DNA of 10,594 nt from Tidjanibacter sp. (GTDB lineage: Bacteria; Bacteroidota; Bacteroidia; Bacteroidales; Rikenellaceae). Shown here piece after piece: positions 4,889 to 10,590 of this stretch. The notes under the pieces were generated by a model. That model did not search any database, was not told the origin of the DNA, and worked only from the letters and a program-made list of their open reading frames with translations. Location: assembly GCA_017628675.1 (NCBI GenBank), contig JAGBYS010000038.1, forward strand, positions 1 to 10,594, given 5' to 3'. A program made the position numbers and the translations under genes. The first letter of the stretch is position 1. Each line of letters opens with the position of its first letter.

Positions 4889-4919
4889 TTTCAAGTTACG
4901 AAATTTGTTCGTACTTTTG
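4889..4919 (+). promoter_or_regulatory. Predicted promoter of the pyr operon
   Basis: TACTTTTG (4912-4919) is an exact match to the Bacteroidota -7 consensus TAnnTTTG. TTTC (4889-4892), nineteen bases upstream, differs by one base from the -33 TTTG. Transcription should start at about 4924-4927, so a transcript ending at the attenuator would be about 150 nt. It is the best promoter candidate between the mutS and pyrC starts on this strand. Confidence 0.7.
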
Positions 4920-4930
4920 TGAGCAAATAA

Positions 4931-5041
4931 ATGACAGAAGCGGTTATGACAATTTGCAATAAAAACTCGTTTGCGGTGCAGCAGGCACACAAGGTGGAGC
5001 AGCAAATGTCGCGTTGTCTTTTGTCGTTTTTGGTAATATAG
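4931..5041 (+). CDS. Putative pyr operon leader peptide (36 codons)
   Basis: An ORF begins at ATG 4931 and ends with TAG at 5039-5041; an in-frame ATG at 4946 would give 31 residues (MTICNKNSFAV... ...CLLSFLVI). From the predicted transcript start the first ATG would have only a few bases of untranslated RNA, so the second may be the real start; neither has a good Shine-Dalgarno. The product resembles no enzyme and has no obvious run of one regulatory amino acid. The argument for translation is position: the ORF covers the T-rich tract and its stop codon shares its last base with the first base of the attenuator stem, so a ribosome finishing it would mask the 5' arm. This parallels E. coli pyrL upstream of pyrBI, though there the stop lies beyond the attenuator. 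An open frame this short could arise by chance. Confidence 0.5.
   Translation: MTEAVMTICNKNSFAVQQAHKVEQQMSRCLLSFLVI
5014..5031 (+). promoter_or_regulatory. T-rich tract, possible UTP-sensitive pause region
   Basis: TTGTCTTTTGTCGTTTTT, 13 T in 18 bases, lies ten bases before the attenuator stem and inside the leader ORF. In E. coli pyrBI, RNA polymerase pauses at such U-rich stretches when UTP is low, letting the ribosome catch up. A weak hairpin can be drawn just upstream (TTTGC 4970-4974 and TGC 4977-4979 with 4999-5006), which could assist pausing. Function is inferred from layout. Confidence 0.4.
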
Positions 5042-5076
5042 AGGTAAGTCGCCCCCGCGAGTTGCCTCTTTTTTTT
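5041..5076 (+). terminator. Intrinsic terminator before pyrC (putative attenuator)
   Basis: Stem 5041-5052 pairs with 5057-5068 around a CCCC loop: twelve positions with one G-T wobble (5045/5064) and one G-G mismatch (5048/5061), then eight consecutive T (5069-5076). It lies downstream of the pyr promoter and only 32 bases before the pyrC start, with no complete gene between them other than the small leader ORF, so it must be read through for the operon to be expressed. That position makes an attenuator the natural reading. No convincing mutually exclusive antiterminator hairpin was found by eye, favouring ribosome-based control over a riboswitch or PyrR-type switch. Confidence 0.85.
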
Positions 5077-5093
5077 ATGCTAAATTTCAAGTA

Positions 5094-5100
5094 AGGGAGG
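5094..5100 (+). promoter_or_regulatory. Strong ribosome binding site of pyrC
   Basis: AGGGAGG ends eight bases before the pyrC ATG. It lies after the attenuator T-tract, so pyrC translation starts independently of the leader ORF. Strong Shine-Dalgarno sites are uncommon in Bacteroidota; pyrE and pyrB in this operon have AT-rich leaders instead. It fixes the pyrC start at 5109. Confidence 0.75.
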
Positions 5101-5108
5101 TTGAAAGT

Positions 5109-6389
5109 ATGAATTGTACGGCAAGTGTGAGTCTTCTGATCAGCGGCGCAAAGGTGTGGCTCGAGGGCTCATTCGTTCAGCGTGATGTGCTTGTGGAGGA
5201 TGGTCGCATTGTGGAGATTTCGGACCACATAACCCCTCGTGAGGGCATCAGGACGGTGGAGGCAAGCGGCAAAATGTTGCTGCCCGGACTTGTGGATATG
5301 CATGTCCACCTGCGCGAGCCAGGCTACGGCTACAAGGAGACCATCTATAGCGGCACACGAGCCTCGGCCCGTGGCGGCTTCACGGTGGTTTGCCCTATGC
5401 CCAATCTAAATCCCACTCCCGATTCGCTTGAAAACATAAAGGAGCAGTTTGACATCATTGAGCGCGATGCAATAATTGAGGTACTTCCTTATGCCACCAT
5501 CACGACGGCTCGTCAGGGCGAGGAGTGTGTCGACTATCAGACTCTTACACCTTTCGTAGCAGGTTTCTCAGACGATGGCACCGGTGTGCAGTCGGCCGAG
5601 CGTATGGAGGAGGCTATGAGGGGCGTTGCCGCCACGGGCAAGATTCTCGCCGCCCACTGCGAAGTGGAGAGCCTTCTTCGTGGTGGTTACATCCACGATG
5701 GCGAGTGGGCCAAGGCTCACGGCCACAAGGGTATCTGCTCCGAGAGCGAGTGGGCCGAGGTGAAGAGAGATATAGAGATTGCCGAGCGCACGGGCTGCCA
5801 CCTGCACTGCTGCCATATCTCCACTAAGGAGAGCGTGGAGCTCATCAGGGAGGCAAAGCGTAGGGGAGTGAAGGTCACTTGCGAAACAGCACCCCACTAT
5901 CTGGCGCTCTGCGATGAGGATATGCGTGAGGAGGGCCGCTTTAAGATGAATCCCCCGCTGAGGGCAAGAGAGGATATGGAGGCTCTGCGCAAGGGTGTTG
6001 CCGATGGCACCATCGATGTTATCGCCACCGACCACGCACCCCATTCGGCCGAGGAGAAGTCCCGTGGGCTCCAGAAGAGTGCTATGGGCGTTGTGGGTAT
6101 CGAGACTTCGCTTGCTGCGATCTACACCTTTATGGTGGCCGGCCATTTCATCACCCTCGAAAGGCTCGTGGAGATAATGTCTGTCACCCCCAGGCGCCTG
6201 CTTGGATTGGGAGATGGTATCAAACGAGGTGAGGTTATCGACGCCACACTGGTCGATTTCGGCTCGGAGTTTACGGTCGATCCCGCAGATTTCCTCTCCA
6301 AGGGTAAGAGCACCCCTCTGGAGGGTATGCGCCTTCGTGGAGAGGTATTGCTGACCATTGCCAAGGGTAAGATTGCTTACGAAAAATAA
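5109..6389 (+). CDS. pyrC: Dihydroorotase, type I (zinc amidohydrolase)
   Basis: Catalyses the reversible cyclisation of N-carbamoyl-L-aspartate to dihydroorotate, third step of UMP synthesis, in the cytoplasm. The 426-residue protein is an amidohydrolase-fold enzyme of the Bacillus-like type I class, not the shorter E. coli type II. Visible motifs: metal-binding DMHVHLREPG (63-72; H65, H67), FSDDG (153-157) with the Asp that in type I enzymes replaces the carboxylated lysine as bridging ligand, H183 in AAHCE, H236 in CHISTKES, and TDHAPH (307-312) with the catalytic Asp D308. The C-terminal beta domain holds the typical GEVIDATLVDF. The start at ATG 5109 is set by the ribosome binding site, and the next Met is residue 56, too late. 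First gene of the operon; pyrK follows after 18 bases. The full set of metal ligands argues for an active enzyme rather than the inactive PyrC' partner found in some bacteria. Confidence 0.95.
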   Translation: MNCTASVSLLISGAKVWLEGSFVQRDVLVEDGRIVEISDHITPREGIRTVEASGKMLLPGLVDMHVHLREPGYGYKETIYSGTRASARGGFTVVCPMPNLNPTPDSLENIKEQFDIIERDAIIEVLPYATITTARQGEECVDYQTLTPFVAGFSDDGTGVQSAERMEEAMRGVAATGKILAAHCEVESLLRGGYIHDGEWAKAHGHKGICSESEWAEVKRDIEIAERTGCHLHCCHISTKESVELIREAKRRGVKVTCETAPHYLALCDEDMREEGRFKMNPPLRAREDMEALRKGVADGTIDVIATDHAPHSAEEKSRGLQKSAMGVVGIETSLAAIYTFMVAGHFITLERLVEIMSVTPRRLLGLGDGIKRGEVIDATLVDFGSEFTVDPADFLSKGKSTPLEGMRLRGEVLLTIAKGKIAYEK

Positions 6390-6407: not shown

Positions 6408-7151
6408 ATGTACAAAAGAGATATATATAAAGTAATAGAAAATCGCCCACTTTCGGCCAAGACTATGCTTATGGTCCTGGAGGGCGATACGCAGTATGTC
6501 GGCTCGGCTGGCGAGTTTGTGAATGTGGCTGTGGAGGGCAAGTTTCTGCGCCGTCCCATATCCATCTGCGACTACGACGAGAAGACCATCACCCTGCTCT
6601 ACGACATTGTGGGCGAGGGTACGGAGATTATGAGCAGGTTGCCCCTGGGAGCCGAGTTGGATATCCTGACCGGCCTGGGCAGGGGATTTAGTGAGGATAA
6701 GGTGTGCCAGAGACCCGCACTGCTTGGTGGCGGCATTGGTTGCGCACCACTGTACAACCTCTCCAAAAAACTACTTGCAAGAGGTATTAAACCCGTTGTA
6801 ATTCTTGGTTTCAACTCCTCAAAGGATGTGGTGGCCAAGGAGATGTTTGAGCGGATTGGTGCCGAGGTCTATGTGGCAACAGTCGATGGAACAATGGGCA
6901 CCAAAGGCTTTGTGACGGATGTCATCCGCGAGAAGGGGCTGGAGTGTGACTACTTCTACGCTTGTGGCCCAATGCCTATGCTCAAGGCCGTGTGCAACAC
7001 GCTGGAGTGGAGTGGTGAGGTCAGCCTTGACGAGAGGATGGCTTGCGGCTTTGGTGTCTGTATGTGTTGCAGCGTGGAGACCCGCTCGGGAGCAAAGCGC
7101 ATCTGCAAAGAGGGACCCGTATTTATGAAGGAGGATTTGATATGGAAGTAA
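6408..7151 (+). CDS. pyrK: Dihydroorotate dehydrogenase B, electron transfer subunit
   Basis: PyrK passes electrons from the FMN of PyrD to NAD+ through its own [2Fe-2S] cluster and FAD, so orotate formation is coupled to NADH rather than quinone. The 247 residues show the family order: FAD-binding barrel with RRPISI (48-53), nucleotide-binding segment GGGIGCAPL (107-115), YACGPMPML (184-192), and a C-terminal ferredoxin-like cluster site DERMACGFGVCMCC with ligands C213-X4-C218-X2-C221-X11-C233 followed by KEGPVF. C220 is an extra neighbouring cysteine. All four cluster ligands are present. It starts 18 bases after pyrC with a modest AGAGAGG close to the ATG and overlaps pyrD by ten bases, as expected for two subunits of one heterotetramer. 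Confidence 0.94.
   Translation: MYKRDIYKVIENRPLSAKTMLMVLEGDTQYVGSAGEFVNVAVEGKFLRRPISICDYDEKTITLLYDIVGEGTEIMSRLPLGAELDILTGLGRGFSEDKVCQRPALLGGGIGCAPLYNLSKKLLARGIKPVVILGFNSSKDVVAKEMFERIGAEVYVATVDGTMGTKGFVTDVIREKGLECDYFYACGPMPMLKAVCNTLEWSGEVSLDERMACGFGVCMCCSVETRSGAKRICKEGPVFMKEDLIWK
7128..7135 (+). promoter_or_regulatory. Ribosome binding site that decides the pyrD start
   Basis: AAGGAGGA, a near-perfect Shine-Dalgarno inside the 3' end of pyrK, lies six bases before ATG 7142. In-frame ATGs at 7151 (TAATG with the pyrK stop) and 7163 are farther away (15 and 27 bases), so 7142 is preferred. Confidence 0.75.
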
Positions 7152-8062
7152 TGGAGCGAGATATGAAGGTTGTGCTCAGCGGTGTTGAGCTCGACAATCC
7201 TGTGATTCCTGCCAGCGGTTGCTTTGGCTATGGCTACGGAATGGCGGAGTACTATGATATTGACATTCTGGGCTCGATATCCTTCAAGGGTACCACTCGT
7301 GAGGCTCGCTACGGCAACCCCCTGCCAAGGGTTGCGGAGTGTTCGTCGGGAATGATTAACGCCGTGGGCCTTCAGAATCCCGGCATCGACGCCGTGATAA
7401 GTGAGGAGCTGCCCAAGATGCGCGAGAAGTTCCATAAACCCATCATTGCCAACATTAGCGGCTTCTCGATTGATGAGTATGTGGAGTGTTGCCAGAAAAT
7501 CACCCACGAGGAGCAGGTGGAGATTATCGAGCTTAATGTGTCGTGCCCCAATGTGCACGGCGGCGGTATGAGCTTTGGCACCTCGCCCGACTCCGTGGCA
7601 GAGGTGGTCAGGGCCGTAAAGAGGGTTATCACAAAGCCCTTGTATGTAAAACTTACCCCCAACGTGACCGATATTGTGGCTATCGCCAAGGCTGCCGAGG
7701 CGGCCGGTGCAGATGGTATCTGTCTGATTAATACGATGCTCGGAATGAGAATCAACACTCGCACCCGCAAGCCCGTGATTGCAAATACTATGGGTGGTTT
7801 CTCGGGTGCGGCAGTTTTCCCCGTGGCTGTGAGGATGGTCTATCAGGTGTCGAAGGCCTGTAACATTCCCGTCATCGGCTGCGGTGGTGTAGAGAGCGCC
7901 TCGGATGTTATTGAGATGATGATGGCGGGTGCCTCGGCCGTAGAGGTGGGTGCAGCAAACCTGCGCAACCCCTATGCGTGCAAAGAGATTATCGAGAACC
8001 TCCCAAAGGAGATGGAAAGACTTGGAATTAAGAAACTAACAGATATAATTGGAATCGTATGA
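7142..8062 (+). CDS. pyrD: Dihydroorotate dehydrogenase B, catalytic subunit (class 1B)
   Basis: Oxidises dihydroorotate to orotate on FMN and hands the electrons to PyrK. With the start at 7142 the product has 306 residues, the normal size for class 1B. Visible: [12 protein letters not shown] (20-31), [15 protein letters not shown] (49-63), [11 protein letters not shown] (71-81), the active-site loop [12 protein letters not shown] with catalytic base C135 (serine in class 2 enzymes), the FMN-binding barrel segments [10 protein letters not shown] (169-178) and NTMGGFSG (215-222), and the phosphate-binding [10 protein letters not shown] (246-255) and [12 protein letters not shown] (266-277). 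The frame extends upstream into pyrK to 7043, but those residues are not family-like. It overlaps pyrK by ten bases and pyrF by four (ATGA), implying translational coupling. Class 1B together with PyrK is typical of Firmicutes and also found in Bacteroidota. Confidence 0.95.
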
Positions 8063-8772
8063 TAAACGCAAAGGATGTAATCATTGCCTGTGACTTTGCC
8101 TCGGCAGAGCAGACTATGGCTTTTTTGGATAAATTTGAGGGGGAGGCACGCAAGCCTTTCCTGAAAATCGGTATGGAGCTCTACTATGCCGAGGGTAACG
8201 CTATCGTGAAAGAGATTAAAAGAAGAGGACATAAGATCTTCCTCGACCTGAAACTGCACGATATTCCCAATACGGTCCGCAAGGCTATGAAGGTCCTTTC
8301 GGCCTTGGATGTGGATATGGTCAATGTTCACGCTGCAGGCACCGTGGAGATGATGAAGGCTGCCCTGGAGGGTCTTACTCGTGAGGATGGTTCGCGCCCC
8401 TTGCTGATTGCCGTAACGCAGCTCACTTCGACCTCCGAGCAGACCATGCAGCAGGAGCTTCTGATTGGTGCCACCATTGGCGATACCATCATCAAATATG
8501 CCCAGAATGCCAAAGAGGCCGGACTCGATGGTGTTGTGTGCTCACCTCTGGAGTCTGCCATCGTTAAGGAGGCTTGTGGCGGCGAGTTTATGACCATCAC
8601 CCCCGGTATCCGCTTTGCCGATTCGGCTGCCGATGACCAGGTGCGCATCACCTCGCCTGCCAAGGCTCGCGAGATTGGCTCGGACTACATCGTTGTGGGC
8701 CGTCCCATCACCGCTGCCGAGGATCCCGTGGCAGCTTATCGCAGATGCGTTGCTGAGTTTTTGAATTTGTAA
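8059..8772 (+). CDS. pyrF: Orotidine 5'-phosphate decarboxylase, short (Bacillus-like) subfamily
   Basis: Decarboxylates OMP to UMP, the last step of the pathway. The 237-residue TIM-barrel protein has the catalytic Lys-Asp-Lys-Asp array: K36 in FLKIGMEL, and D63, K65, D68 in [10 protein letters not shown] (63-72). Further family signs are VNVHAAGT (88-95), VCSPLE (160-165), TPGIR (181-185) and the phosphate-gripping VVGRPIT (212-218; R215). Its length and [10 protein letters not shown] motif place it in the short subfamily 1 of Bacillus and E. coli; from memory, many Bacteroides carry the longer subfamily 2 enzyme of about 270 residues instead, which would make this gene slightly unusual. 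The ATG overlaps the pyrD stop by four bases; pyrE follows after 23 bases. Confidence 0.95.
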
Positions 8773-8795: not shown

Positions 8796-9434
8796 ATGAC
8801 AACAGAGAAAATCATTGCTGCCGAGCTTCTGAAGATTAAGGCAGTATTTCTGAGCCCCAATGAGCCCTTCACCTGGGCCAGCGGCATCAAGAGCCCCATA
8901 TATTGCGACAACCGCCTCATTCTCACCGCTCCCGCCTCGCGCAAAGTGGTGGAGGGTGCTATCGCCCAGACCGTTAAGGAGCGCTTCCCCGAGGCTGAGG
9001 TGCTGATGGGTACAAGCACTGCGGGTATCGCCCACGCAGCCATTGCTGCCGACATTCTGGATATGCCTATGGGATATGTGCGTGGCAGTGCTAAGGACCA
9101 CGGCAGGGGCAACCGCATTGAGGGTCGCCTGGAGAAGGGTGCAAAGGTTGTTGTGATCGAGGACCTCATCTCCACAGGCGGCAGCTGCATCGATGTTGTA
9201 GAGGCTCTGCGTGAGGCAGGTGCCGAGGTGCTTGGTGTTGTGAGCATCTTCACCTACGGAATGAAGAAGGGCCTCGAGAGGCTTGCTGCGGCAAATGTTG
9301 TGAACTACTCGCTCTCCAACTTCGACACTCTCGTGAGCGTAGCAGTGGAGGAGGGTTATATCGCACCCGCCGACGAGGCTCGCCTCAAACAGTTTATGTC
9401 CAACCCTCAGGACGAGAGCTGGATGCAGAAATAA
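8796..9434 (+). CDS. pyrE: Orotate phosphoribosyltransferase
   Basis: Transfers phosphoribose from PRPP to orotate, giving OMP for PyrF. The 212 residues form a type I phosphoribosyltransferase: the hood region FTWASGIKSPIYCDNR (25-40), the flexible catalytic loop RGSAKDHGRGNRIEG (96-110) with K100 and H102, and the PRPP-binding motif VVVIEDLISTGGS (118-130) with the two acidic residues E122 and D123. The start ATG 8796 has no Shine-Dalgarno; its upstream is AT-rich, as usual for the phylum. It follows pyrF closely, the same pairing as in Bacillus (pyrF-pyrE). A 67-base gap without a hairpin terminator separates it from pyrB. Confidence 0.95.
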   Translation: MTTEKIIAAELLKIKAVFLSPNEPFTWASGIKSPIYCDNRLILTAPASRKVVEGAIAQTVKERFPEAEVLMGTSTAGIAHAAIAADILDMPMGYVRGSAKDHGRGNRIEGRLEKGAKVVVIEDLISTGGSCIDVVEALREAGAEVLGVVSIFTYGMKKGLERLAAANVVNYSLSNFDTLVSVAVEEGYIAPADEARLKQFMSNPQDESWMQK

Positions 9435-9501: not shown

Positions 9502-10590
9502 ATGAGACACTTGATTGACCCCACCGACCTTTCAATGCAGGAGCTTAATGAGATTATCGATCTCGCATTGGACATCATCGAAAACCGTGAGAAATACACG
9601 GAGGCTTGCAAAGGTAAAAAGTTGGCGACTCTCTTCTATGAGCCCAGTACTCGCACTCGTTTGAGCTTCACTTCGGCAATGCTGGAGCTTGGTGGTTCGG
9701 TTCTCGGTTTTTCGGACGCTAAGAGCTCCTCGGTAGCTAAGGGTGAGACCTGCGCCGACACAACCAAGACTATCAACTGTTTTGCAGATATTATCGCTAT
9801 GCGCCACTTCGAGGAGGGTGCTGCTTTGGTAGCCGCAAACAACTCGCGCATCCCCGTTATCAACGCTGGTGATGGTAGCCACAGCCACCCCACCCAGACC
9901 CTCACCGACCTTCTGACTATCAAACGCGAGGTTGGTCGCTTCGACAACCTCACCATCGGTTTCTGCGGTGACCTCCGTTTCGGCCGTACCGTTCACTCGC
10001 TCATCAAGGCCATGTCGCGCTACCAGGGTATCAAAGTTGTGCTCATCGCTCCCGAGCAGCTCCGTCTGCCCAGCTATATGAGGCAGGAGGTTTGCGAGAA
10101 GAACAACATCCCCTACAAAGAGGTTACCTCGATGGAGGAGGTTATGGGCGAGTTGGATATCCTCTATATGACCCGCGTACAGAAAGAGCGCTTCTTGGAT
10201 GAGGATGAGTTTGACCGTCTGAAAGATAGCTTCATCCTTGATCCCGCCAAACTCAAGAATGCTCGTCCCAATATGTGCATCCTTCACCCCCTGCCTCGCG
10301 TAAACGAGATCACCGTGGAGGTTGATGCCGATCCCAGGGCTGCTTACTTCCGCCAGGTGGAGAATGGTAAATTCGTTCGTATGGCTCTGATTATGAAGCT
10401 TCTCGAGTGGGCTAAGGACGACAGCAAGACCATCGACCTGATTCCTGCAGATGTAGTTCGCAACGAGTATGTATGTAGCAACAAACGCTGCATCTCCAAT
10501 ATGGAGAATGTAGATTCGCTCTTCCGTCCTCGCACCGACAAGCCCGGCAAATTCCGCTGCGTATACTGCGAGTCGAAGGCCAAACTGTAA
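9502..10590 (+). CDS. pyrB: Aspartate carbamoyltransferase with a C-terminal PyrI-type zinc domain
   Basis: Condenses carbamoyl phosphate with aspartate, the first committed step. Residues 1 to about 310 are a complete catalytic chain: carbamoyl-phosphate loop FYEPSTRTR (45-53), the mobile loop SSSVAKGE (75-82; K80), HPTQ (129-132), the aspartate-domain region [12 protein letters not shown] (156-167) and HPLPR (262-266). E. coli PyrB ends here (about 310 residues), but this protein continues to 362. The extension has the four-cysteine site C325-X4-C330-X22-C353-X2-C356 in [10 protein letters not shown] ... RCVYCES, matching the zinc domain of the regulatory chain PyrI (E. coli C109, C114, C138, C141, with the same CIS after the second Cys). 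The nucleotide-binding N-terminal domain of PyrI is absent. No separate pyrI is seen; the window ends four bases after the stop. pyrB lies 67 AT-rich bases after pyrE with no clear promoter, so it is probably the last of the six operon genes visible. Confidence 0.96.
10435..10587 (+). other. PyrI-like zinc-binding domain fused to PyrB
   Basis: Codes for residues 312-362 of the PyrB protein. In E. coli the equivalent domain of PyrI binds one zinc through four cysteines and is the part that touches the catalytic chain, holding two catalytic trimers to three regulatory dimers. Here all four cysteines are kept and the surrounding pattern (aliphatic-C-x-N-x-x-C-I-S, later C-x-Y-C-E) follows PyrI closely, while about 100 residues of effector-binding domain are missing. 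Domain assignment is strong; its effect on assembly or kinetics is inferred. Confidence 0.9.

Follow-up and report, generated by a model that had tools for sequence, protein, structure and literature searches.

The pyrimidine operon of this Tidjanibacter sp. is preceded by a leader that probably acts as a UTP-sensing, translation-coupled transcription attenuator, working like the E. coli pyrBI leader with no visible homology to it. We put the probability of this reading at roughly 0.7. The window, a 10,594-nt stretch of DNA, is contig C10 of a 1.64 Mb genome (G000) that is about 82% complete. Profile matches give the gene order pyrC-pyrK-pyrD-pyrF-pyrE-pyrB on the forward strand, with mutS upstream on the opposite strand. 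The ORF list and a family match identify the first gene as a dihydroorotase (pyrC, 5109–6389). It is followed by pyrK, the dihydroorotate dehydrogenase electron-transfer subunit (6408–7151), whose best family matches fall below the curated cut-offs. Family matches then assign a dihydroorotate dehydrogenase (pyrD, 7124–8062), an OMP decarboxylase (pyrF, 8059–8772), and an orotate phosphoribosyltransferase (pyrE, 8796–9434), and the last gene is pyrB (9502–10590; TIGR00670 above its cut-off). All leader features described below are on the forward strand.

Promoter and terminator upstream of pyrC

The first-pass annotation of this DNA had described a promoter of the type known from the phylum and a hairpin with a T run before pyrC, and both are borne out. 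The −7 promoter element TACTTTTG at 4912–4919 matches the motif TAnnTTTG. A −33-like element, TTTC (4889–4892), lies 19 nt upstream of it; this was matched against TTTG, which we take to be the consensus, and by eye many relatives have TTTG-like boxes near the same place. Transcription would start near 4925. The TAnnTTTG motif is located 116–144 nt upstream of the hairpin in all 25 terminator-bearing leaders compared here, and the distance from the predicted transcription start to the hairpin is 102–130 nt in every one of them. Bases 4920–4930, which follow the promoter motif, appear similar by eye within clades (GGGCAAAT, or CCAATTTAAGCGA in others) and might bear on start-site choice.

Folding revealed a terminator hairpin at 5040–5069, made of 8 bp plus 4 bp with an internal mismatch, and the T run at 5069–5076 has its first T paired. 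The hairpin has a folding energy of −18.7 kcal/mol (z = −7.8), and 0 of 200 shuffles were as good. A simple promoter/terminator scan had missed it.

Conservation of the leader

The pyrC gene is present in all 23 genomes of the genus in our collection, and each has the promoter motif, the terminator, and an ATG-initiated ORF that stops on the terminator. Among five readable leaders from named Bacteroidota records outside the genus, two have the full layout (L035 and L036, Muribaculaceae), L033 has a hairpin and, by eye, no leader ORF, and the terminator is missing from L034 and L087. A terminator between the promoter and the first pyr gene was identified in 25 of the 26 leaders scanned, the exception being L034. 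Leaders L031 and L032, which coincide with L009 and L011, were not counted, nor was L050 (156 nt upstream).

An ORF ends at the hairpin in 25 of 25 terminator-bearing leaders versus 3.8 expected from dinucleotide shuffles of the sequence between promoter and hairpin, using a tolerance for the stop position that was chosen after the leaders had been inspected. Because the leaders are related to one another, nine representatives with less than 65% nucleotide identity were also tested; multiplying their shuffle probabilities gives about 10^-8.5.

In all 25 leaders the stop codon ends between −5 and +19 nt from the point where the hairpin begins. Gene-end terminators in 400 kb of a genus-mate (G004; n = 18) begin 8–96 nt after the stop codon, 17 of them at a distance of at least 18 nt. 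The same 400 kb contains six terminators that precede a gene, and a promoter motif with a leader ORF occurs only at the one before pyrC. A lambda terminator in E. coli is described, in the excerpts of PMC4824070 used here, as almost fully repressed near a stop codon and as reaching its maximum beyond about 30 bp, from which it follows that a trailing ribosome would silence a terminator placed so near the stop.

The leader ORF and its peptide

The leader ORF was first described as 36 codons followed by TAG (4931–5041). The ORF itself stands, and comparison of the 12 nearest leaders favors a different start. The ATG at 4931 is about 5 nt after the predicted transcription start, and an in-frame ATG at 4946 is about 20 nt after it. 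An ATG located 11–22 nt from the predicted start is found in 11 of these leaders, compared with three that have the early ATG at 5 nt (L001, L002, and L005); in L005, the exception, the early ATG is present and the later site reads GTG. A start at 4946, giving a peptide of 31 residues (MTIC..., 4946–5041), is therefore more likely than the 36-residue version. The stop codon (TAG, 5039–5041) overlaps the hairpin, as had been noted at first, although by two bases and not one, and is 67 nt before pyrC.

The position of the stop appears to be kept more strictly than the peptide. The ORFs of L007 and L008 end in different frames, both on the hairpin. Pooled over six close pairs, pN/pS is 0.51, with pN greater than pS in two of the six, values that are too noisy for a verdict on selection at the peptide level. 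Some peptide motifs, such as MTIC, recur at the level of clades. The diverging peptides, differing frames, and pN/pS values together suggest that where the ORF stops is more important than what it encodes, with weak selection on the peptide being possible.

The U-rich tract

A U-rich tract inside the leader ORF occupies 5010–5039, and the two 15-nt blocks that directly precede the hairpin are each 53% U. Across leaders, U makes up 0.40 and 0.49 of these two blocks and 0.20–0.25 of the sequence earlier in the ORF. The frequency of A reaches its minimum (0.14) in the first of the two blocks, where U rises, indicating that the tract is not plain AT richness. Leaders are more U-rich before the hairpin than earlier in the ORF in 23 of 25 cases; the tract is absent from L017 and L018, which makes UTP sensing less certain in those two. 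The last 30 nt have a mean U content of 0.448 versus 0.237 before 18 ordinary terminators in G004 (Mann-Whitney P = 9e-6, with related leaders counted separately), and one of the 18 reaches 0.40. These data confirm the U-rich stretch that had been reported before the hairpin. The conservation check proposed in the first-pass annotation turned out in its favor: all 23 genus genomes have the ORF and the hairpin, and 23 of 25 leaders show the U enrichment. This result lends support to the leader-peptide attenuator that it predicted.

Distribution beyond the genus

Leaders with the same layout were found in a sister genus (g169), in all three cases where the leader could be read; two more loci (L357 and L361) were unreadable at the leader. 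For pyrC in family f2, 89 genomes matched; the 30 best loci were selected and 29 of them examined. A terminator was identified in 11, and a promoter with an ORF in three of the 29 (L273–L275, one genus), as counted by layout. Another locus from that genus, L270, has the same type of terminator and neither a promoter motif nor an ORF in 251 nt.

We also surveyed leaders upstream of pyrB across the order, using 125 of 127 loci (L127 and L148 are without a recognized pyrB start). The survey omitted L114–L116, of which L114 and L115 are genus members and L116 (f2) lacks a terminator in its last 160 nt, and pyrB rows of G082, G092, G101, G104, G116, and G179 were outside it. A terminator 20–110 nt upstream was identified at 55 of the 125 loci, and 15 of these have a promoter motif at a suitable distance. 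A leader ORF reaches the hairpin in 14 of the 15 eligible leaders versus 2.6 expected (14 of 125 overall). These 14 leaders span 13 families. Six have an ORF that extends across the hairpin, like E. coli pyrL, and in 10 the U content is higher before the hairpin; L129, L188, L211, and L223 are weak members of the set. Most pyrB loci in the order are without such a leader.

Within the family of the window, but outside genera g1 and g169, none of the 34 pyrB loci that were examined, out of about 47 strong matches, has such a leader, and one pyrB locus of the family (L370) has a terminator-like hairpin without a promoter motif. In a sample of the phylum searched for pyrB at E ≤ 1e-40, four of 148 genomes matched besides the source genome, and the leader occurs in none of these four; with so few matching genomes, the rest of the phylum is hardly sampled for pyrB leaders. 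The scattered occurrence of pyrB leaders could reflect repeated origin or repeated loss, which look alike in these comparisons.

Comparison with known attenuators

Pyrimidine attenuation by coupling of transcription and translation is textbook knowledge for E. coli. The window's leader resembles E. coli pyrBI (pyrL, 44 codons) in having a short leader ORF, a U-rich tract, a terminator overlapped by the ORF, and a pyrimidine operon downstream. When analyzed with the same script, pyrL has a U content of 0.40 in the last 30 nt, a hairpin of −15.3, and an ORF that overlaps the hairpin. The pyrL ORF crosses its hairpin, however, and ends 47 nt past the hairpin start and 3 nt before pyrB, whereas in the window 67 nt separate pyrC from the stop of the ORF, which lies on the hairpin; the phylum and the first gene also differ. 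The leader peptides produced no local alignment with pyrL at E ≤ 100, although common descent may go undetected in peptides this short and variable. The logic would be the one known from pyrBI, carried by a leader sequence that appears unrelated.

In the E. coli pyrE attenuator, the upstream rph/orfE ends a few bases before the terminator. The window likewise has an upstream ORF ending at the terminator, but with its 31 or 36 codons this ORF is a leader and not a full-length gene. Bacillus pyr operons are controlled by PyrR-dependent attenuation at a leader terminator. They share with the window a pyr operon with a leader terminator and differ from it in that no PyrR above the cut-off, PyrR-binding element, or antiterminator was found here.

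Within the phylum, leader-peptide attenuation has been proposed before amino-acid biosynthesis operons of Flavobacterium psychrophilum, and no pyr leader is among those in the excerpts of that study (PMC9723704). Short ORFs in long 5′ UTRs are described for B. thetaiotaomicron in the excerpted text of PMC7366714. The excerpt of PMC4833913 deals with leader genes in general, and the term "bacteroid" does not appear in that of PMC2965389. A pyr leader attenuator in Bacteroidota was not among the matches listed from the open-access literature.

Proposed mechanism and alternatives

The sequence itself shows the promoter motif, ORF, U tract, hairpin, and stop position, together with their conservation; from this arrangement we infer the transcription start, that the leader is translated, that the polymerase pauses and can read through, and that UTP is involved. 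RNA polymerase would initiate near 4925, with a ribosome soon loading onto the leader ORF. With ample UTP, the polymerase would move quickly through the U-rich tract at about 5010–5039, the hairpin at 5040–5069 would form ahead of the ribosome, and transcription would end near 5076. When UTP is scarce, the polymerase would pause in the tract and the ribosome would catch up to the stop codon on the 5′ arm of the hairpin. With a ribosome at the stop, the 5′ arm would be unable to pair, resulting in read-through into pyrC-K-D-F-E-B. UTP is the proposed signal because the tract is U-rich and the operon encodes the pyrimidine pathway.

No upstream partner for the 5′ arm of the terminator was identified clearly beyond the level of shuffles in any of the 25 leaders (z = −0.36 to +1.82). 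Pairing was weaker than in shuffles (z > 0) in 24 of the 25 and slightly stronger in L007 (z = −0.36). These values make an antiterminator design unlikely and are consistent with the ribosome occluding the arm directly. Three related leaders (L014, L017, and L018) have a possible upstream pairing with the terminator arm, at z values of 0.1 to 0.7 that are not beyond shuffles; in L017 and L018 it involves 10 of the 14 arm bases. These three leaders may use another signal.

A coupled attenuator could also report translation capacity and not UTP, with the U tract being a by-product of codon use or a fixed pause site; close-trailing ribosomes would then turn the operon on at any UTP level. All 25 leaders place the stop on the hairpin, yet L017 and L018 have no U tract, and the weaker rise in U among pyrB leaders (10 of 14) points the same way. 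We nevertheless consider this explanation unlikely: U enrichment is specific to its place, the ordinary terminators as a group are at 0.237 against 0.448, the target is the pyrimidine pathway, and a similar tract is present in E. coli pyrL. Much less probable is that the leader senses an amino acid, for example arginine through the shared precursor carbamoyl phosphate, or encodes a ribosome-arresting nascent peptide that acts with an antiterminator. Arginine makes up 8.9% of the residues in nine representative peptides, the recurrence of motifs such as MTIC within clades is compatible with such a role, and the pooled pN/pS hints at weak constraint. The longest run of codons for one amino acid in these nine is only one to three, however, pN exceeds pS in two of six pairs, and the terminator arm is without alternative pairing beyond shuffles.

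The promoter, ORF, and terminator form a complete unit of about 150 nt, and the hairpin could thus end a separate small RNA or small-protein gene, leaving pyrC with its own downstream promoter. The first-pass annotation had itself raised a promoter downstream of 5076 as evidence against an attenuator. The TAnnTTTG motif was looked for between the T run and pyrC and found in 0 of 25 leaders, the unit has a fixed position before pyrC in all 23 genus genomes, and Rfam returned no family for the leader at the gathering score, only weak sub-threshold matches (E ≤ 5) that are not credible. A separate gene is slightly more doubtful again than amino-acid sensing or peptide arrest. The least probable explanation is that a PyrR-like RNA-binding protein or a riboswitch acts on the leader. 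The operon may descend from a PyrR-type operon, since its PyrC is nearer to that of Paenibacillus, and the possible arm pairing in L014, L017, and L018 could be read in this light, but that pairing does not exceed shuffles. The earlier remark that nothing like a PyrR site was recognizable holds up, as Rfam searches of the leader gave no PyrR element or riboswitch match. None of 60 genomes has PyrR above the cut-off; 48 have weak matches only, and the genome that carries the window is itself about 82% complete.

Coupled, UTP-sensing attenuation may recur elsewhere in the order. Bacteroidales may have evolved UTP-sensing pyr attenuators independently of Enterobacteria, perhaps repeatedly, with the stop position under selection and the peptide largely free. 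In the window's family, two genera would have such an attenuator upstream of a pyrC operon, and roughly a dozen other sampled families would have one upstream of pyrB. We judge this broader proposal about as probable as its opposite. If true, it implies that ribosomes trail RNA polymerase closely in this phylum, and we know of no instance of such close transcription-translation coupling for Bacteroidota. An unrelated version in Bacteroidota would represent convergent regulation without any regulator protein. The leader also provides a natural test of close ribosome-polymerase coupling in the phylum, as shifting one stop codon relative to the hairpin should alter pyr expression.

Other features of the operon and genus

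Carbamoyl-phosphate synthetase is absent from many genomes of the genus. Including G000, CarA is above the cut-off in 10 of 23 genomes and CarB in nine of 23. Seven genomes that are 98%–99% complete (G001, G004, G005, G007, G011, G015, and G016) have neither CarA nor CarB above the cut-off, yet have kept pyrC. An AraC-type DNA-binding fragment of 92 codons is encoded on the reverse strand at 1634–1912, between yidC and mutS. The window's PyrC has 41%–48% identity to Paenibacillus dihydroorotases versus about 30% to ordinary Bacteroidales PyrC, which suggests that pyrC or the whole operon was acquired by transfer. The C-terminus of the aspartate carbamoyltransferase encoded at 9502–10590 has a weak TIGR00240 match (residues 315–359), resembling a portion of PyrI, the regulatory subunit, and is possibly a fused regulatory part.
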